Positions 1 through 47,971 of a stretch of 64,000 nucleotides of DNA are shown piece after piece. How positions within the stretch are numbered: the stretch's first letter is position 1; each line of letters begins with the position of its first letter. The notes beneath the pieces are model-generated. The model saw only the letters and a program-made list of their open reading frames with translations. It did no database searches and had not been told where the DNA came from. Position numbers and translations under genes: made by a program. The stretch lies in the NCBI GenBank assembly GCA_002897115.2, contig BCIH01000007.1, positions 124,001 through 188,000 of the forward strand. The letters run 5' to 3'. The stretch comes from Prototheca cutis (Eukaryota > Chlorophyta > Trebouxiophyceae > Chlorellales > Chlorellaceae).

Positions 1-1078
1 GCGTGTGTGCTTTTGGTTGTGGGTCCATGCCCAACCAGAGCTGCTTGGTCAAGAGTCAATGCCGTCTCCTCTCTTTAACCACATGACAGTGAGAATCTTT
101 GGGCACCAATCCAACTCCGGGCCCTCTAAACCGCTCACCCGCCGATGATGTGCAGGAGGGCGCCCATGAATCCCGCATGGAGCAGAGTCCACGTCAACCT
201 AACAATGGCAGCATGGGCGAGCTGTTTCCGTTCGAGGGGACGCACAGGAACACCGTCACCCAGTTGACCTGTGCAGCAACTGCCACCATCGCTGGAATCT
301 GCCGGGAAGCACTCCATTGNCCCCCTCCAAAAAGCCCTGAAACTCCGGCCTCTCACTTGTAATGGTAGCCCTCACACTCCTGAACCTCGGGCTCCTGGTC
401 TCCGCTCGGCAGCAGGCCCATTGGGAGCGAGGCCCCTGCTGGTCCTTGCTGCCTACCCAGTGAGAAGCGGGCAAGCTCGGCAACTGCTTCGCCAGGCATG
501 CACTCCTCGCTGGCTCGACTCGAGACAAAACTCAGGAGTGTTGTCCTCCAGTTGACCAGTCATCAAGGATCTGCACTGCCCAAGAGTCTGTCTGCAACAT
601 CACCGTCAGACGTGTGTGAACGACGCTCGCTCCTCCGAGATGCCTAGCCCGACGGGCAGCCACGTTCAGAGAGCACAGCAGGGTCCTCAGAGCCCGACAA
701 GCACAGAGCTTGTCGTTGGAAATTTAATCGGTGCCTTGACATAGACATCCGACAGTCAGTGGACAGGTTTCAAAGGCTTGGCAGCGACAAAGACTTTTGT
801 TTCCCGCTTGGCGGTGAAACCCCTGTGGCGTCGTCCAGCAATGATGCATGTCTGTGTTTGAACCCTCCATGGGGGGCCCCAGCCTGCCCAAAACCGCGCC
901 ATTTCATGGATTTCAACAAAAAGAACGCGAGCTTCTACATCATCTTTGCCATGGGGACAACAGCGGCCTATAGTACAAACAAAAGGGGAACCAAAGCATG
1001 GAGGGTTTTGGCAAATTGCCCTAGAAGAGTTTTCAGATTTGCTAAGGGACAGTCAAAGCAACAAAGCACAATCACTCT
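1..1078. other. No supported gene; intergenic
   Basis: Only short overlapping open frames on both strands, none with recognisable motifs. One ambiguous base lies at 320. It may be the 3' flank of the minus-strand 2H phosphoesterase gene plus the edge of an unseen neighbour. Confidence 0.4.
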
Positions 1079-2320
1079 TCAGTTTTGTTGTCCATTTGTC
1101 TGAAATGGAAGGAACACGGTGGGCCCTTCCACTGTGGTGAAGATGTTCTCCTGCACGTGGGTCACCCCCGCCGCAGACCACGTCCTGCCGGCCAGCCGTG
1201 TCGTCCAATTGTCGCAGACTTTCGCGACAGATTTCACAGCCACAGGGTCCAGCTGCCGTGGCGTCAGCACCCGCCCGATGCTCATGTGGATGATGGTGCT
1301 CTGCGTCTGTGGCGCACCAGGGAAGGAAGAGCGCAGCCGGGAACGAAGCGCCGTCAGCGTCCTCCCTTCACGCTCCACGCTGGTGAGCAGCAGCGTCCCC
1401 GAATCGGCCAGCAGCAGGCGGTGCACGGAAAACCGCGGCGCCGGCAGTTCTGCCACGGCCGCACGCATGGCTTCCACCTCGCGCTGCACCGTGGCCGCAC
1501 CAGGTGATGCCCATTCGGCGGGCGGGACATCGGGCTGGATCCACTCACGATCAAACGGATCTGGCCGCAGCGTGTGTGGCTGGCTGGTCATGAACACGGT
1601 CACGTGAAAGTGCTCGGCATCGTTCCGGTGGAACGCAGTGCCTGCGATCGGGGGGGGAGATTGTGGCGGATTCATAGTCTATGCAAGATCATGGGCTGAA
1701 GCAGCGCAGACGCTCGTGGGCAGATCCGCATGCCAGATGGGGCAACGAACTAGGCATAAACGGCAATGTTATTCAACTAAAACACCAGCGATATACCGTG
1801 TCAATTAGAAACACAACTACAACCGCACCCTCTGGCAGCGCGGCGGCGACGTCTTGCCCCGCGGCCTTGAGGAGCTGGGCCAGTTCCGGGCAGCATTCTC
1901 GGATGAAGAGCACTCCCAAGCGCACGGCGCCGCGTGGTAGGGGAGAGGGAAACTCGAGGTAGTCCAGGGGTGAAGGGTCTGGGCATCATGGGCCAAGGGA
2001 GGCAGCAGGGCGGAAGTTGAGATGCGCCTGCAGCGTGCCGGCCTCCCAATCCGGTTAAACAAACTCCCACCTACTATGGAGAGGGTGCCCCCCCCCGGCG
2101 ATCTGCTCCACGCACACGCACCGGATTCATCCAGATTCTTAAAGTACTGTCTTGTGGCCTCCACGGCCGCCAGATTGAGCCCATTGGCAAGAAAGCGGGC
2201 GTGCATCGTGTCGTACACGGAGGCTAGCTGTGCCGGGTCGGACTGCTGGTCCTCGCTCACTGCGGCTTCCAGGGCATGGACGCGTTGATCTCGGTCCGGT
2301 GTGTGATCAATGACACGCAC
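1079..2320 (-). CDS. 2H phosphoesterase superfamily protein (LigT-like), three or more exons
   Basis: The last exon (about 1650-1079) carries the two His-x-Thr/Ser signatures of the 2H superfamily: HVTVF near the exon start and HMSIG near its end. Both histidines form the active site in RNA-ligase-like and cyclic nucleotide phosphodiesterases. A middle exon (about 1970-1815, reading LDYLEFPSPLPRGAVRLG) and a first exon starting MRVIDHTPDRDQRV at 2320 are joined by inference; exact splice sites were not resolved. The spacing and flanking residues resemble the plant RNA ligase/cyclic phosphodiesterase family. The substrate is unknown: it could act on 2',3'-cyclic phosphate RNA ends or on cyclic nucleotides. 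It lies downstream of URB1 on the same strand, about 360 bp away. Confidence 0.65.
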
Positions 2321-2685
2321 TTCTCACGTCATTATTCATGCTACGGACCTTTGACCTTGGCCTGCAGACTGGCACTCATGTCAGGGATGTTCACCGAACT
2401 GCCCACAAAGTGGACGCCATTGGCTCGCTGTTCACCCATGGCTCTAGGGCGGTCGAAGTCCTGCAGAAAGCTAAACTACAAATAAAATATATGCGTATCA
2501 GGATCTGGTGGTTTAAGCCGCGGCTGTTTTTGTTCAGGCAATCCTGGGATGGCACATGCCGAGGCCGCGCTGCCGGAGATTGGGGCATGACAAAGGCTCG
2601 GGCTCCTGGCCGCTGGAATTTGTTGGGGCAAGGGGCGCGCCCCCAGGCTGAAGAAGAACTTGCCAACGTTCCACGCGCCGGCCCA
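2321..2685. other. Intergenic spacer
   Basis: Between the 3' end of URB1 and the 5' end of the 2H phosphoesterase gene, both on the minus strand. It should hold the URB1 3' UTR and the promoter of the downstream gene; no specific site was recognised. Confidence 0.4.
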
Positions 2686-10437
<7,752 letters not shown>

Positions 10438-13556: not shown

Positions 13557-16463
13557 TTCTCCCCCCCCACCCCCCCACCCCACACACACACACACAACCC
13601 ACCAGGCTCGGGCTGGGGCGTCGACGGAGGAATCCTGCACGCAGTACAACATGCTGAAAATTGCCCGGCGGATGTTTGCTTGGACAGGCAGCCCAGGTAC
13701 AGTGATGGAGGCATGCTTGCTGTTTCTTGGTGCCTCGCTCACCTAGGGTGGTAAGGCCTGTGCTCAATACTGGGAGTTCTGGGTGTGTGCAGCGGTGACG
13801 AGCCTATGGGTATCAGGGCCCCCCGACTGAAATCCCTCAATGTCTATCTGAATCTCAGCAAGCACAACTTCAACCCCCTCCTTCCCCCCAACCCTCACAG
13901 AGGTTGCGGATTACTACGAAAAGGCAATTCTCAACGGCGTGATTGGCATCCAGCGCAAACCTCACCAGCATGATGAGGACCATGGGATGCACGCACATCG
14001 GCATGGAGGCAACGAGCACCAAGGGTCTGCGATCCCGGCCAACATGCACCACGTTGATGAACATGCCCACAATCATGCCGACAACCAAGCCACAGAGCAT
14101 GGCCAAATTGCCGAGCTGATGCATGTGGCCTACGAGATTCAGCCTCGTCCCTCCAACGCCCAGGTGGGTTGCATGGCCAGGGTGGCACTTTGCAATCAAC
14201 CGCCTGGTTGGATGCCCGGCCCAGCGATGCCTGGGGAATGCCGGGGTCGTGGCCAGGTTGAGTTGCCCATTTTCAACATGCCTCTTTTGCAGCGCAGCAG
14301 TGGGACGGGATGGCTGTGACGCAAGCACACTTCCACCAACTTGTTCCCCTGTGCAGGTCGTCGCATGGCCTGAAGATCCGGGGGCCATGATCCGGAAGGA
14401 GCTGGGTCAAGCAGCAAATGGCCCTGGCCCAGGAGTCATGATCTACTACCTGCCACAATGTGAGGAGGAAACGGGGGTGGGAGCGGCGTTTGTTCTCAAT
14501 AGCACGGGTTTTCTTGGACTGTGAGATGAGATCTTATGTTGTTGGAGCCTCTGTTCGACCGATTGGCGTCGCCTTGTTCCGAACTCGAGGGTCTTGGGCC
14601 TGTCCTGACACCCAATCCCATGAGCACCCCCCCGCCCTGGTTATCATTGGAATCTTCTCCAACCTAAAACCCACAACGTTCTGCCATGCAGTTGCCGGCG
14701 AATGGAAGGGTGACCATGAGCACGTTTGGACGGGGTGGGGCGATCCCTTTAATACCTTTTGGTGCTGTTACGGAAGCGGCGTCGAGTCCTTTTCCAAGCT
14801 TGCAGACTCCATTTACTTTCACAGGTGAGAAAGGAGCGGGGGACGCTCATGATAAAATGTTTGCCCTGGCCTCAAACTTTGGAGATGCTTGCTCCAGCAC
14901 TCCCGCATGCACCTGCAAGCAGGATGAACCCAACCAATGCGATTGCAGGAGTACCAACGAGAGCTACGGTGCTCTGCATGGTGTGGTTCAGGACCCTCCA
15001 CCGGAGCTCTTTGTGAACCAGTTTGTGAGCAGTTCCCTCAACTGGACACAGCAAGGGGTGTACATCATCCAGTCGGCCGGTGCGTGTGGCGGTGATTGGA
15101 AGATGGGTGGGGAGGAAAGCGGAGGGCAATTTATGACGCTTTGCGGTGGATGGGCGGAGCGTGGATGTCAGCACGACAGACGACACCCACCAAGCTTGAA
15201 CCACCCATCGCAACACCGCCACCGCGCAGATTTATATGCGCCCGATAACGTCGCGCGCTCAAAGCTTGCGGTCACGATCCCCGGCGGTTCGCGAAACTCT
15301 GCTCGGTTCACGCTCAAGGTGCGTGTGCCGGCCTGGACCGATGCCGAGAGCGCGAGCATAACAAAGACCGGACATCCTATCGACTGCGCGGCAGCTCCCA
15401 GCACAGCGGCGGCAGCGGCTGACCCCCAAGGCCTTGCTCAGGTCGGCGCAATTTACTGCGACGTCGGGCCGGAATGGACCTCTGGTGACGTCGGTGCGCG
15501 CCCGGATTTGTTCTTTCGTTCCCATGGGGAGGCAGCAGATCTGTATGTACAGATGGTGCGCAGAGTGTTGGCTGGCAGATGCAACGCAGCACGCCCTCCC
15601 CTCCTAAACCCCAAAACAAACAAAATGCAGTGGAGGTGAGCCTGCCGATGGCGGCAAGGACAGAGGCGGTGAACGACTGGCGACCTGGGCATGCCGACCT
15701 GCGTGCGGTGCTGGTGGGTCCATTTGTCATGGCAGGTCTGACCGATGGCCGCCGCGATATAGCCGCCAATCCCAGCGACATCGGCCGCCTGCTTACGGCA
15801 CCATCGGTCGAAGGTCTCGTGTCCGTGGCCGTTGGCAATGAGGGTCACGCCACGAGCATGCTGCTTGGTCGTTCGCCGGGGTCAAACACAGTGCGCCCCA
15901 TCCCGGCGCGCGAGACGTCAAAGTCCCGAGCGACCGCGATGGACGCCACCTTCCGTGCACTTCCGGTGCCGTGCCCTTTGGCGGCTGGCAGGAGCAGGGC
16001 CAGGGCGGCAGGGTCGCTGGCACAGGGTGAGCCCTCTGCCTGTGTCATGCTGGAGAGCATGTCCCGTCCGGGGCAGCTGGTTTCGGCGCCGCAAGGTGCT
16101 GGCGGTCTGACGCTGGATGACGGTGCGGTCAACAGCGCGCCGGCCGCCTTTGCGGTGGGCAGCTGCGCGGCGCCCGACGCCGATGCAGGTTTGCCAGCGG
16201 CCGCGTGCCTCCGCGCCGTGAGCGCAAGCACACAGACAGCGCTACAGACCGCTCTAGGCAGCGACGGTGACGTCCTTGAGCTGCGCCTCAAGCCCCCCGC
16301 TGCACCGCAGTACCCGTTGGGGTCCAGGGTGCTTAAAGGTTCAGACACGCAGTACCTGCTGGTGCCCGTGGGCCAAATCATCGATGAGCATTACACTACA
16401 TACCTGGAGTTCAAGCCTGTGGCCCCGTCCCTTCTGGATGCTGGGCCCATTGCCGTGTATTAA
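11009..16463 (+). CDS. Secreted GH127-family (DUF1680) glycosidase, multi-exon
   Basis: Glycoside hydrolase family 127, whose characterised members are beta-L-arabinofuranosidases acting on hydroxyproline-linked arabinans. The chosen start gives a signal peptide (MAGLVTLALMSLCLLLPGRL) missing from longer frames. Conserved blocks follow in order: DGPDFKEGFELNNRYLLML (11.25 kb), SYGGWESSTVEVRGQFIGHY (11.56), IHKIMAGLLDQHT (12.1), VLYNMYVVTGNSKYAKCAERFDKP (12.65, shown in part), ANTHLAQ, HHSYATGGNNWWEYW (13.2), EESCTQYNMLK (13.63) and NTFWCCYGSGVESF (14.75). The Glu-x-Cys and Cys-Cys residues correspond to the zinc ligands of bacterial HypBA1, and the first Cys of the pair to its nucleophile. 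A His-rich insert lies at 13943-14160. The C-terminal part ends DAGPIAVY at 16463. At least ten short introns; one holds a 45-nt C run beside its acceptor. Substrate unproven. Confidence 0.85.
13512..13556. repeat. 45-nt C homopolymer at a GH127 intron acceptor
   Basis: Uninterrupted C run followed by C-rich and CA-repeat sequence and then the acceptor AG before the exon encoding EESCTQYNMLK. In this orientation it could act as an extended polypyrimidine tract. Confidence 0.9.
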
Positions 16464-16594
16464 CTGCTTGCCGAAGAAAAGCATTCTTGTCACCGTTTTG
16501 AGATGTTTGCATATCACAACAGGGAGTATGAACATTTTCTGTCCACCTTTCAATGGGTGCCTTTTGGATGCAACGCATGAAGAAAGTATCCTTA
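16464..16594. other. GH127 3' flank, host side of the transposon
   Basis: About 130 bp between the GH127 stop and the transposon end. If the Fanzor RNA reads through the terminal repeat, the minus-strand sequence just below 16595 would be its guide segment. Confidence 0.4.
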
Positions 16595-16617
16595 TACCGC
16601 GCAGGGCAAAAATAATG
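16595..16617 (+). repeat. Left terminal inverted repeat of the Fanzor transposon
   Basis: Begins TACCGCGCAGGGCAAAAAT and pairs with the right end at 19936-19958. This end is proximal to the 3' end of the Fanzor ORF. The same sequence starts the short element at 41431. Confidence 0.85.
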
Positions 16618-16907
16618 CAACCAGCTCAGCCAGCAACAGCGTCACATCACCCCGGGGGTCACTGGGCATCACGGATGGCCGAAAATTTTCACACTCTGCA
16701 GGGCAATAGGAAGGTGGACCATTTCAATGATGGATCACCTCCGGGGCTGTTTTTCCTTTCCAGGGCAAGGAGCCCAGTGCTCGTTGCCCCAGGAAGGGAG
16801 GCCCCAGGGCTTCGACCCCCGGGGCTGCTTTCCCTTTCCGGGGAAGAGAAGGAGCCCCGGGAGTTCCCACCCCCAGTTGGGATGGCTGTAAACCCCCAGG
16901 ATGGATT
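16600..16907 (-). ncRNA. Candidate Fanzor guide (omega) RNA scaffold region
   Basis: Segment between the Fanzor stop codon and the transposon end. In TnpB and Fanzor systems the guide RNA scaffold comes from this position and the guide is the adjoining host sequence. Two imperfect copies of a GC-rich hairpin lie at 16741-16775 and 16818-16861; the second has a perfect 9-bp stem CCCGGGGCT/AGCCCCGGG. The terminal part, about 16600-16735, is retained in the MITE-like copy with only scattered changes. Assignment is by position and structure only. Confidence 0.45.
16818..16861. repeat. GC-rich inverted repeat (hairpin) downstream of Fanzor
   Basis: Arms 16818-16826 and 16853-16861 are perfectly complementary (9 bp) around a 26-nt loop that holds a smaller TTCC/GGAA palindrome. 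A degenerate copy with 5-bp GGGCT/AGCCC arms lies at 16744-16775, so the hairpin is tandemly repeated. Confidence 0.7.
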
Positions 16908-19467
16908 TTACTGCGGCGCTGGGCGCTGGAAGCGGTCCGGCCGCTTGCCAGTCTTCCGCAGGCTCTGCACAATGTGCCTCATGTTCAGACACGCCATCAA
17001 GTCTCTGTTCCAGAGACGATGCTCGCCGTTNGGGGGGCGGCACTTCTCGTTGGTGCAGCGCAGCAGCCCGTGGCACACCACCTCGGGCGTCTGCTCCCTG
17101 CGGTAGGGGCGTGGGTTGGGCACGCGGAGGAACGTCTCCACCGTGCACTCCTCGTGTTTGCAGGCCGGGCAGCGCTTGGAGGTGCAGTACTCGTCGATGA
17201 GCACGACGTTGAACCCCGCCTTGACCAGCGCCCGCAGCAGCCCGACGTGTGGCATCGGCTCGTGGTAGCGTGCCGGGCCCGGCNNNNNNNNNNNNNNNNN
17301 NNNNNNNNNNNNNCCAAAGACGGAGCTTCCGGAAGATGGGCTTGGCATAGTGCTTGCTGAGCGTCGGCTCGACCTCAGCAAACACGCGCAGGTACGCCAA
17401 GAAGTCTGCCACAGTGCAGGCCCTGGCCCCGTTGGGTGCCTCGGCGGCCAGGCGCTGCAGGGCCTTGCGCACACCCTTGGTCATGAGCCTCTCGCATACC
17501 CTCCGGAACTTGCGCGACCGTGTGAGGAACGCCCACTCCCTGCTGCTGATCCGCATGGTCAGGCGGCGTCCCTTCTCGTGGCTCGAGTCCTCGTGCATGC
17601 AGTACATCAAGTCCCTGCGGCCGGGGTCAATGAACACACACTTGCCGAGCTGCTCCAGCTCCTCGGGGCTGAGGTCATCGACGTAGCGCAGGCCCTCGAG
17701 GCCTCGGCGCTTCACGACCCTGCGTCGTGCGGCCGGCTGCTGTGCGTCTGTGTGATCTTGCTGAGGGGGGTCAATGCCGTCCGACTCCGCGCTAGCAGCG
17801 GTGCCAGCAGCAATGCTGGCGGCCCTGCCACGAACCACGCGGGAGCCGGTCGCTCCCTCTGCCTCGACTCGCGCGGCGCGGGTGCTGCCGCCGCCGTCCT
17901 CGTTGTCATTGCTGTTGTCCCCGCCATCGCCAGGGAACTTCCGTTTCGCAGGCGGCGCGCGGCTGCTGCCGCCTTCGTCACCCATGTCACCGCGGCCCTT
18001 ACCGCCAGCGCCGCCGCCACCAGCGCGGCGGTGGCCTCTGCCGCGACCGCCTCTGCCGCCGCCGCCACCAGCGCCGCCGCCGTCGCCGCCGCCGTCGCCG
18101 CCGCCACTGCCAGCGCCGTTGCCGCCATCAGCACCGCCAGAATGGCAGGCCCAGCGAGTCTGGCCCGGTGGCTTCTTGATGAAACTGCAGCTGATGCCGT
18201 CAGAGCTTACGACTCCCTGGAACTTGTTTCCACTGACGTCCTTGATCTCGCGGCGACCTGGCATCAGCAGTGTTCCCCAGATCTCCTCCAAGTTGGCCGA
18301 GAACCTGCCAAGCTTGTCGTTCTTCAGGAATTGCTTTGCAACGATGAAGTTGTCCATCTGCACCGCCCCAGGCACATGCGAAGTGTGCATAGGGATGGCC
18401 CGGAACGTGCGCATTCCCTCCTCGACGCGGAAGCGGGACATCGCGATCATCGCGCGAACGTGCTCCCTCGGGTTGGCCTTGGAGTCGTAGTAAAAGGTGC
18501 CCTTTTCGAAGCGGTACCCCGGGGGGTAGGCGTTGCGCAAGAGCTGCAGCAGCCGGTCGTACTTTGCCTGCTGCGTGGCGTCCATTCCCTCCACGGCCGC
18601 CTCCAGGCGCCCGAGCGCCTCCTTGATGCGCCTCGCGGGCCCGTTGACCTCCTGATCGCGCGTCTCGCGGCGCCTCTTGCGATCCCAATGCTCCCTGCGG
18701 GCCCGTGCATCCAGCTCCTTCCGGCGGTCCTTGACGTTGAGGATCAGGTTCATGGTGCCCCGCACGTGCTCGCCAAAGTGCTTGCGAACGTTGGCCTCCA
18801 CCGCCGCGCACTGGGCNTCTCCCCAGTACTTGGCATCCTGCACGTCAAGGGAGCACCCGGCTCGTCTACCACGTGGTCTGGGCCATTGCGTGCCAATCCA
18901 TTATAGACAATCCTGCATTCAGCCCGCGATGCCAGCAACACATGCAACCACAACTCAATCAGTCACCTGGTTCGGTGCGTGGTAGAACTGCCGCCGCTCG
19001 TACGCAGTCGCCTGCTGGAACATGGGCCAGGACCTCTGGAAACGGGCACGGAAGTACGTCGTTTCGGGGTTGCTTGTTTTCAACCTCCTAGGGGAGTAGC
19101 TGACCATGTACAGGAAGGCCTCGGAAAAGAACCTGGGACAGATGAACCGCGTTGCAAAGTCCGCACTGCCCGCCTCGTCCTCCTCCAGCAACACGAGTGC
19201 GGCGAAGAACGAGGCATGCTGCTTCACGGGATGCATCTTTTGGACGTGCTGCTCCAGAGGACGATGGAACCCGCGCTTCCAGGTCGCCAGCACCGACGCC
19301 TTGGCGGCCGTAAAGACGCCCTTGAGCGCCTCCCGCCCGCGGCCCCAAAAGTCGCGGTCCATCGACCTCGCAATCCCGCCTGCTGTAACAATGGGTGGAT
19401 GGATTGGGCAGGCCGGCGTAAAGTCTCCCACCTGCTGCTCTGGTGAAGGGCGCCAGAATGCCACCAC
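16908..19467 (-). CDS. Fanzor (eukaryotic TnpB-like) RNA-guided nuclease, two exons, gap in ORF
   Basis: Fanzors are eukaryotic relatives of TnpB and Cas12 that cut DNA guided by RNA from the transposon end. The N-terminal exon runs from about 19467 to 18964, ending YERRQFYHAPNQ. An intron with GT and AG ends joins it to DAKYWG near 18840. A helical region with KDRRKELDARARREHWDRKR follows, then a long Gly-rich stretch (about 18150-17960), basic possible nuclear signals PPAKRKF and ARRRVVKRR, and the nuclease core: RuvC I FIDPGRRDLMYC (Asp), RuvC II VVLIDEYCTSKRCPAC (Glu, plus first zinc pair), a second CTNEKC pair, and RuvC III NRDLMACLNM (Asp). The stop is TAA at 16908. Frame across the 30-N gap changes, so gap size is wrong or the ORF is broken. 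The first Met is uncertain. Confidence 0.8.
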
Positions 19468-19678
19468 GCAAGGGACAGCACCGTCTTCCAGAACGGGAAC
19501 TCACGAGCTGATGTCGACCTGGCTCTCCTATTCGTTCAGAAGACCATGGAACCTGCGCTGCCAGGTCGCACGCACCGACGCCTTGACGGTCGTCATGGCG
19601 TTTTGGTGCACCTCCCGCCCACTACCCCATAGTTGCGGACCATTCGCTTTGCACCCGTTATTGTTGTAATGGGTGCAT
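19248..19678 (-). repeat. Partial tandem duplication of the Fanzor 5' coding region
   Basis: About 19265-19395 and 19545-19678 are related. The minus-strand products GREALKGVFTAAKASVLATW and GREVHQNAMTTVKASVRATW align, and both are preceded by a similar GTTACA/ATTACA-type stretch. The outer copy ends in a stop soon after FHGLLNE. It suggests an internal duplication inside the element. Confidence 0.65.
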
Positions 19679-19935
19679 GAAATAGATAGGTTCGCGGGGA
19701 ATCCCCGTATGTTGTGCCGAGTTCCCACTGGCCGACCCCCCTCGGGAGACCCCCAGTGCTCTTGCCAGGGAGTCAATTTCCAGGACCTTGTAAAACCTCC
19801 TTGCACGACCTGTCCCATGAAGGAACTAAGCCCATTTTCTGGGCAACGCGGCAAGGGGATGCGGTCCAACAGGCATTTTGTTTGAGAGACATGCCCTTGC
19901 TGTGCAGGTGGGAGTCGATGAATCCCGACAAGGTT

Positions 19936-19958
19936 CATCATTTTTGCCCTGCATGGTA
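19936..19958 (-). repeat. Right terminal inverted repeat of the Fanzor transposon
   Basis: Ends CATTTTTGCCCTGCATGGTA, the reverse complement of the left end apart from two bases. Located 16 bp before the Pol III terminator of the neighbouring tRNA-His gene. Confidence 0.85.
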
Positions 19959-41430: not shown

Positions 41431-41796
41431 TACCATGCAGGGCAAAAATAATGCAACCAGCTCAGCCAGCACCAGCGTCACATCACCCCGGGGGTTGCTG
41501 GGCATCACGGATGGCCTGAAAATTTTCACACTCTGCAGGGCAATAGGAAGGTCGACCACCTCAATGATGGGCCACCAAGGTGTGACAATTGCCGTGCCAG
41601 GGTCAATGTCCAGGACTTTCTAAACCTCCTCGCACGCACGACCTGCCCTGCCTTTCAAAAAGGAACCCAACCCATCTCTGAGCAATGTGGCCAGGGAATG
41701 CGGTCCAACAGGCATTTTGTCTGAAAAACATGCCCTTGCTGTGCAGGTGGGAGTCGACGAATCTCGAAGGTTTCATCATTTTTGCCCTGCATGGTA
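41431..41796. mobile_element. MITE-like, non-autonomous derivative of the Fanzor transposon
   Basis: Begins TACCATGCAGGGCAAAAAT and ends with its reverse complement, ATTTTTGCCCTGCATGGTA, a perfect inverted repeat flanked by TA. Bases 41431-41577 align with 16595-16740, and about 41600-41796 with 19767-19958 of the full element, each with scattered differences. The whole Fanzor ORF and the hairpin pair are missing. It looks like an internal deletion copy that would need the transposition machinery in trans. It carries no coding capacity. Confidence 0.85.
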
Positions 41797-47237: not shown

Positions 47238-47971
47238 GGCGGCTGCCACAAGCTGCAGCTCAATTCCAAGCACCGAGCGACGTTGTAGGTTCTTTTATAC
47301 GACGCATAGTTTTCATGCGTTTGTCGTGCTGAGTACTTGGGGGCACACGCGAGCGCGGTCCAGAAATTTTGTGGTCGGTTGCGTTGTGCGTCGGGGTTGG
47401 CTCATGAGAAATACGGTTCGTCAGAAAAGGGACGCGAATCTGTTCAAATTGGCACTCGCGGGCGTGAACTAGCACAACATTCGACAATCCCCTCCGGTGC
47501 ACCACCCGTGCAGCACCCCCCTGTATGACTGCACGATGATGTTTATTCCGCACCAAAGATCACAGTCTGAGAACAGGGCGGGGCCAGGAAGGAGCGCGTT
47601 CGTGGGCAACCGCCCTTCAACCTTCGTGGGCTGCGCAGCTCCGGGGGACGGGGCCACCAAGCCGCGCGTGTAGGCCCCTTGCAACGCCTGTTACCCCATA
47701 AATCNAGATAATGAAAGGATTGAGGNNNNAANNGGNNNTNNNNTNNNNNCGGTTTCTCGCTCGGCGGCCCTTGGCATTCTTCNAACGCGCCGCCAGCAAG
47801 CGCGATCGGGATTGGCAAGGACCTGGCTCATGCACTGTTTGGGTCCCAGAGTAGGTGCTTGTGTGGGTTGATTTCAGAAGAAAATCTCGTCTTACACCTC
47901 CATATCATGATTCAATTGTCCACTATTTTGTCAAATCAAGGGGAGTACTGCGCAGACAAAGACAGGTCAAT
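47238..47971. other. Low-quality intergenic stretch with N runs
   Basis: Contains clusters of N between 47705 and 47783. No gene can be supported; open frames across it include unknown residues. Confidence 0.5.

Follow-up and report, generated by a model that had tools for sequence, protein, structure and literature searches.

Fanzor proteins assayed so far are RNA-guided nucleases (PMC10432273), and those of the Fanzor1 type are carried by several transposon superfamilies, including Mariner elements with TA duplications (PMC3627910). The closest described system is Spu-1 of Spizellomyces punctatus, for which 134 "ghost" loci and no transposase inside the inverted repeats are reported; its nuclease, SpuFz1, is associated with a 75-nt RNA scaffold at the right end of the element and with the target-adjacent motif (TAM) CATA, the CA being conserved before the 5' inverted repeat (PMC10432273). 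Among green algae, Fanzors are borne by Helitrons of Chlamydomonas (PMC3627910), Fanzor2 genes are found in cut-and-paste elements of Chloropicon primus (PMC10711439), and the most abundant repeat of Auxenochlorella UTEX 250-A is an uncharacterized Fanzor element (PMC12633428), the latter preprint being all that a search for literature linking Fanzor with Prototheca returned. The present analysis concerns a 64,000-nt stretch of the genome of Prototheca cutis (GenBank assembly GCA_002897115.2, contig BCIH01000007.1, positions 124,001 to 188,000 of the forward strand; hereafter, the window), in which the presence of a Fanzor transposon at positions 16597 to 19956 is confirmed. Prototheca is a colourless trebouxiophyte genus, and the original prediction of a Fanzor within an element bearing terminal inverted repeats (TIRs) in an alga of this type is supported by matches of the encoded protein to Fanzor1 and by the ends of the element. 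We propose, with modest confidence, that this Fanzor1-carrying TIR transposon, inserted at a TA target and belonging to a large family, forms part of a two-part system served by a separate transposase.

The element had been described as approximately 3.36 kb in length with inverted repeats of about 20 bp, a description which holds closely: the element proper measures ~3.4 kb, and its inverted ends (16595-16617 and 19936-19958) span 23 nt including the outer TA dinucleotides at 16595-16596 and 19957-19958, with 20 of 23 positions (87%) complementary. It therefore displays the TIRs and the TA on both sides which are expected of a Tc1/mariner-type element, and this combination is typical of DDE transposases. 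Across the genome (19.89 Mb in 23 contigs), a 16-base end motif recurs exactly 235 times (116 on the plus strand and 119 on the minus strand), while its reversed control does not occur.

The Fanzor gene is located on the minus strand, a detail absent from the original prediction, and is predicted to specify a protein of ~795 residues in which a Gly-rich linker of ~145 residues precedes RuvC I. The motifs named previously (IDPGRRD, LIDEYCTSK, LWNRDLMACL, CPAC, and CTNEKC) are all present. The coding region is interrupted by an assembly gap of 30 N, and the apparent change of frame at this point arises because that length is a placeholder: the corresponding distance is 92 nt in all 14 relatives that retain both flanking pieces (L010 to L025, with L014 and L023, each lacking one such piece, left out), which together with one leftover base amounts to 31 codons, and a single frame runs through the copy on contig C7 (L031). 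The frameshifts throughout which closure of the gap might have exposed are not what the relatives indicate, their 92 nt preserving the frame across a stretch which still reads N in the window copy.

Placement of the protein outside the TnpB/Fanzor clade, the other outcome that would have told against the original prediction, finds no support from either the profile search or the structure matches, both of which give Fanzor1. A profile built from eight relatives, of which the window protein formed no row, matched at E ≤1e-3 only three Fanzor1 sequences, namely, PpFz1 of Parasitella parasitica (1.9e-279), SpuFz1 (5.8e-96), and GtFz1 (1.5e-27). PpFz1 (PDB 9cf0) likewise represents the best solved match to both main parts of the window protein, with E-values of 5.6e-28 for the last 124 residues (SpuFz1, PDB 8gkh, 8.1e-16) and 1.2e-27 for exon 2 (SpuFz1, 4.1e-6), beyond which exon 2 matches only unrelated chains at E ≥0.01 by way of the Gly-rich linker. 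The protein is, accordingly, closer to solved Fanzor1 structures than to TnpB or Cas12, and the Pfam Cas12f1-like TNB domain (21.6 bits, cut-off 26.3) and the NCBIfam family guided_TnpB (15.8 bits, cut-off 100) score below threshold in the window Fanzor pieces. The catalytic Asp/Glu/Asp, formerly judged intact looking, aligns with D383, E541, and D606 of SpuFz1, whose roles have been described (PMC10432273), and in this alignment the Glu of the RuvC triad occupies the alternative (IDE) position. Also present is the published Fanzor1 motif D-X(125-275)-[TS][TS]-XX-C4 finger-X(5-50)-RD (PMC3627910), with a D-to-TS spacing of ~168 residues if the gap measures 92 nt as in the relatives. The designation of the window gene as Fanzor1, a predicted RNA-guided DNA cutter, is thus supported.

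More than 100 relatives share the ends of the window element, many of them devoid of a Fanzor gene. The C-terminal 124 residues returned at least 151 genomic matches (a lower bound, 150 of 308 candidates having been scored), and the middle 520 residues returned 73. Recurring deletion classes with common junctions are evident, in which element coordinates 1720-2862, ~1250-2204, 164-2860, or 201-3222 have been lost. When 198 of the 235 exact-motif ends were paired, 37 pairs of neighboring opposite ends lay less than 16 kb apart, comprising 4 of 102 to 118 bp, 15 of 353 to 369 bp, 8 of 587 to 678 bp, and 10 larger pairs. One of the 198 ends was included under both end types, and none of the pairs depends on it. 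The two smallest classes carry no Fanzor gene and the 587- to 678-bp class retains ~64 C-terminal codons without a complete gene, such that the family contains ghost loci in the sense of elements with the same ends and no Fanzor gene. The 102- to 118-bp elements (L063, L066, L090, and L091) are little more than a pair of 3' ends in inverted orientation, and three of the four are flanked by TA on both sides.

Among 41 loci examined for coding integrity, which partly overlap and many of which fall short of full length as fetched, all three coding parts are complete and free of stops in only two members of the main family, the window copy and L032 (contig C20), and in L041 and L042 of a second lineage described below. 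Comparison of exon 2 of the window copy with those of L031, L032, and L033 yielded ratios of nonsynonymous to synonymous substitution rates (dN/dS) of 0.42 to 0.53. The earlier description of the element as recent looking is poorly supported, synonymous divergence (dS) from 10 other family copies ranging from 0.03 to 0.19 by segment, and the window copy is one of many, with no clear sign of recent origin. As a separate observation, a second version of the beginning of exon 1 lies farther upstream, within the 5' leader (19537-19629 versus 19255-19347, 78% identical), and this duplicate is also present in other long copies.

The two ends of the family differ in their degree of conservation. Identity at 21 to 81 nt from the end was 0.790 among 38 5' ends as opposed to 0.918 among 45 3' ends, ends with ≥6 N and four palindromes on the 3' side having been excluded. 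Across the 26 copies in which both ends could be compared, divergence at 23 to 83 nt was 0.167 at the 5' end and 0.081 at the 3' end (bootstrap difference, 0.058 to 0.115), and the contrast disappeared at 83 to 143 nt (0.144 versus 0.151). The same asymmetry was apparent in the 22 short copies alone (357 to 682 bp including TA), with values of 0.156 and 0.085 (interval, 0.042 to 0.101); in these copies, the intervals for all windows from 23-53 through 23-93 exclude zero, and the sign is reversed at 83 to 113 nt. Copies which lack the gene are, therefore, constrained at their 3' end. Because the place and size of this constraint resemble those of the 75-nt SpuFz1 scaffold, a guide RNA (omegaRNA) scaffold is predicted at the 3' end, and the last ~80 nt are considered likely to encode such an RNA. 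An Rfam search of the window returned no match.

A further asymmetry concerns the flanking host sequence. Among the unique ends read, those with G as the outermost base having been skipped, TA adjoins 70 of 74 at the 5' side and 85 of 96 at the 3' side. TGTA precedes 33 of the 70 TA-flanked 5' ends versus 23 of the 85 3' ends (Fisher P = 0.012), against a background of 9.2% of NNTA in the window. The two kinds of end are further distinguished by the third base before TA, which is T in 3/70 and 24/85 cases, respectively (chi-square over four bases, P = 0.0007, uncorrected and for one of eight positions tested); neither of the two positions closest to TA, taken singly, shows a significant difference (P = 0.08 and 0.14). 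These flanks are read as a two-sided insertion preference overlain by an additional 5' signal that would fit a TAM, for which TGTA (or T-G/C-TA) represents a candidate.

The absence of a visible DDE transposase, remarked upon in the original prediction, extends to everything examined within the element: no transposase family was matched by the three Fanzor pieces or the ten other reading frames, the latter matching no Pfam family at all, and the DDE/D transposase by which a Tc1/mariner element is also recognized is thus not encoded in recognizable form. Elsewhere in the genome, PF13358 was without a match in a search that was positive in 3 of 14 control genomes, while searches with PF03184 and PF01359 were uninformative, the controls being silent as well. 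Two of the ten larger pairs were fetched as possible autonomous partners, and both were rejected: the 6.4-kb TIR pair L079 proved to be a copy of the Fanzor element that contains a large assembly gap, and the 2.8-kb pair L093 is a chance pairing with short family copies at both ends, whose reading frames, inspected by eye, contained no recognizable transposase.

It is proposed that a transposase encoded elsewhere, or since lost, would move all copies, while the constrained 3' end would be transcribed as an omegaRNA scaffold whose guide, by analogy to SpuFz1, would be furnished by the adjoining host bases. Conserved 3' ends, in full as well as in gene-less copies, would supply the RNAs that load the Fanzor, which would recognize TGTA (or T-G/C-TA) as its TAM and would cut the unoccupied site, upon which repair would copy the element back. 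A tentative extension of this scheme, which we regard as possible while placing it short of an even chance, is that the gene-less elements act in trans as guide-RNA genes, a few intact Fanzors serving dozens or more of ghosts, each with its own site as guide. If this is correct, selection maintains the last 80 nt of copies devoid of any protein, and a family of TA transposons is held in place by homing. Several observations weigh against the guide-RNA scheme. The initial comparison of the two ends, in separately aligned windows of 23 to 90 nt, gave intervals that touched zero and was not significant, and the border at 83 nt was set once the identity profile of all ends had been inspected. When three 3' ends were folded on the gene strand, the results were unremarkable (z = -1.06, -1.30, and -0.13 against dinucleotide shuffles), while the two strands of the window 5' end reached z = -2.0 and -2.3; likewise, covariation on the gene strand (9 pairs; 3 compensatory, 32 one-sided, and 14 broken cells) offers no support, the antisense-strand control giving 12 pairs with 16 compensatory, 14 one-sided, and 21 broken cells. 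A 3'-end structure predicted by RNAalifold (z = -5.1 versus column shuffles) was rejected, as the inverted end does not survive column shuffling and covariation contributed an unfavorable term. The window copy itself carries AGTA rather than TGTA at its 5' flank, the TAM reported for PpFz1, the closest solved relative, is ATN (PMC11423790), and dN/dS outside exon 2, resting on few changes, ranges from 0.20 to 1.16 for exon 1 and from 0.65 to 2.12 for the C-terminal piece. Finally, TG before TA is enriched at the 3' ends also, and part of the TGTA signal is, therefore, attributable to insertion preference.

That same two-sided enrichment (TGTA at 23/85 3' ends), together with the silence of RNA folding and covariation, would be expected if the 3' constraint reflected a requirement at the level of DNA, whereby the 3' end provides a transposase with a longer, asymmetric binding site, the short copies being ordinary miniature inverted-repeat transposable elements that produce no guide RNA. 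The four smallest elements, as inverted pairs of 3' ends, fit such a DNA-binding role too, and the TA on both sides of three of them indicates that two 3' ends suffice for mobility; the length and side of the constrained segment, which match the SpuFz1 omegaRNA, and the extra 5' flank bias, which fits a TAM, argue in the opposite direction without being decisive, and we consider this explanation a serious candidate, albeit one that probably does not apply. Rather unlikely, in our estimation, is a fossil family, in which the usefulness of the Fanzor lies in the past, its partner transposase has been lost, and the copies are merely decaying. The scarcity of fully intact main-family loci (the window copy and L032 among the 41), the dS values of 0.03 to 0.19 relative to the window copy, and the failure of PF13358 to match in the genome would all suit such decay, whereas the exon 2 dN/dS values obtained with three copies and the constraint on the 3' ends of copies without the gene show selection during spread, and the uninformative PF03184 and PF01359 searches, with their silent controls, weaken the argument from a missing transposase. 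A Fanzor acting itself as the transposase and moving the element alone would account for the lack of any other recognized protein inside the ends and of a transposase in the places searched. It is nonetheless highly improbable, given that Fanzors tested to date are RNA-guided nucleases (PMC10432273) and that related Fanzor1s reside in several transposon superfamilies (PMC3627910). The TA target and TIRs, being typical of DDE transposases, also argue against it. The algal family would help to test what role Fanzors play for their carrier transposons, as it offers a measurable trace in the form of the 3' constraint in gene-less copies and the candidate 5' target motif. Auxenochlorella, a near relative of Prototheca, is readily modified by homologous recombination (PMC12633428), and since a Fanzor element is also its top repeat, removal experiments would be feasible in that alga.

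Table 1. Features of the Fanzor1 element and of a related gene-less element in the window
Feature	Position	Strand	Basis or remark
Fanzor1 element with flanking TA on each side	16595..19958	-	Inverted ends, end-motif count
5' terminal inverted repeat, GATG type	19936..19956	-	End comparison
3' terminal inverted repeat, AATG type	16597..16617	-	End comparison
Predicted exon 1, N-terminal part, 132 residues	18967..19362	-	No stop in window copy
Predicted intron, 129 nt, GTGACT...GTGCAG (GT-AG)	18838..18966	-	Splicing inferred from sequence
Predicted exon 2, first part; Gly-rich linker ~18150-17725, RuvC I Asp 17628-17626	17314..18837	-	
Assembly gap, 30 N	17284..17313	.	92 nt in 14/14 relatives compared
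C-terminal part; catalytic Glu 17192-17190, catalytic Asp 17003-17001, stop 16910-16908	16908..17283	-	
Zinc ribbon; CPAC 17171-17160, CTNEKC 17057-17040	within 16908..17283	-	
Predicted guide-RNA (omegaRNA) scaffold, conserved last ~83 nt of 3' end	16597..16679	-	Constraint only
Predicted guide, host sequence just outside 3' end, 14-15 nt	16580..16594	-	Analogy to SpuFz1
Gene-less family member, 366 bp, same ends and TA flanks	41431..41796	-	End match

The insertion is adjoined by a gene with EF-Tu-type GTPase domains (PF00009 and PF03144; 20483-22244) and, on its other side, by an open reading frame (14668-15636) with a weak GH127 match. Short N runs clustered at 47705-47783 mark a weak spot of the assembly.

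A homology search based on the RuvC part, the Gly-rich linker otherwise swamping the candidates (two proteins only), returned 57 protein matches, the best two being ENA proteins at 72% and 47% identity. Named relatives are fungal, mostly of Mucoromycota or zoopagomycete (Coemansia) types and mostly at 32 to 48%, and two scans of viral contigs yielded no viral relative. The nearest relative, P0001 (72%), reads IWGRN where the window protein reads LWNRD, its third catalytic Asp being replaced by Asn as reported for GtFz1. The P. cutis genome also harbors a second, divergent Fanzor1 lineage, represented by L059 and L060 (C4:1442000-1456000) and L061 (C2:1186000-1194000), which is ~50% identical over the middle exon, has open frames of 680 to 770 residues, and includes three copies situated close together on C4; element ends were sought for it and were not found. 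In a tree built by a quick method from 40 of 58 proteins found and six copies of the P. cutis genome, with several long branches, both algal lineages and P0001 form one group (Shimodaira-Hasegawa-like approximate likelihood ratio test, 100) beside the fungal ones. Horizontal transfer from fungi was considered and not adopted, as the algal families stand beside and not inside the fungal group and the tree gives no direction.

The nearest parallel to the P. cutis element is Spu-1 with its ghost loci. Both systems combine a Fanzor1 gene situated between inverted repeats, with no transposase within those repeats, a conserved 3' end of ~75 nt, and a conserved dinucleotide before the 5' repeat, and in Spizellomyces gene-less loci are reported to outnumber gene-bearing ones. 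They differ in their ends and host, in the flanking motif (algal TGTA versus CATA), in the several deletion classes of the algal family, which range from full length down to 102 bp, and in the long Gly-rich linker of the algal protein and a guide RNA that is, in the alga, only predicted. With respect to PpFz1, the published description highlights a RuvC insertion (FRI) domain (PMC11423790), whereas the algal protein carries its Gly-rich linker before RuvC I. Mariner-borne Fanzor1 elements share the TIRs and TA target, but several encode a Mariner transposase, none of which was found in the algal element. The Chloropicon primus element is, as here, a Fanzor-bearing TIR element of a green alga, with Fanzor2 in place of Fanzor1, while the Auxenochlorella repeat, compared by description only, is similarly Fanzor encoding, abundant, and borne by a close relative of Prototheca. 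Fanzor elements in green algae were already known, and what merits testing in the present findings is the constraint measured at the 3' ends of copies without the gene.

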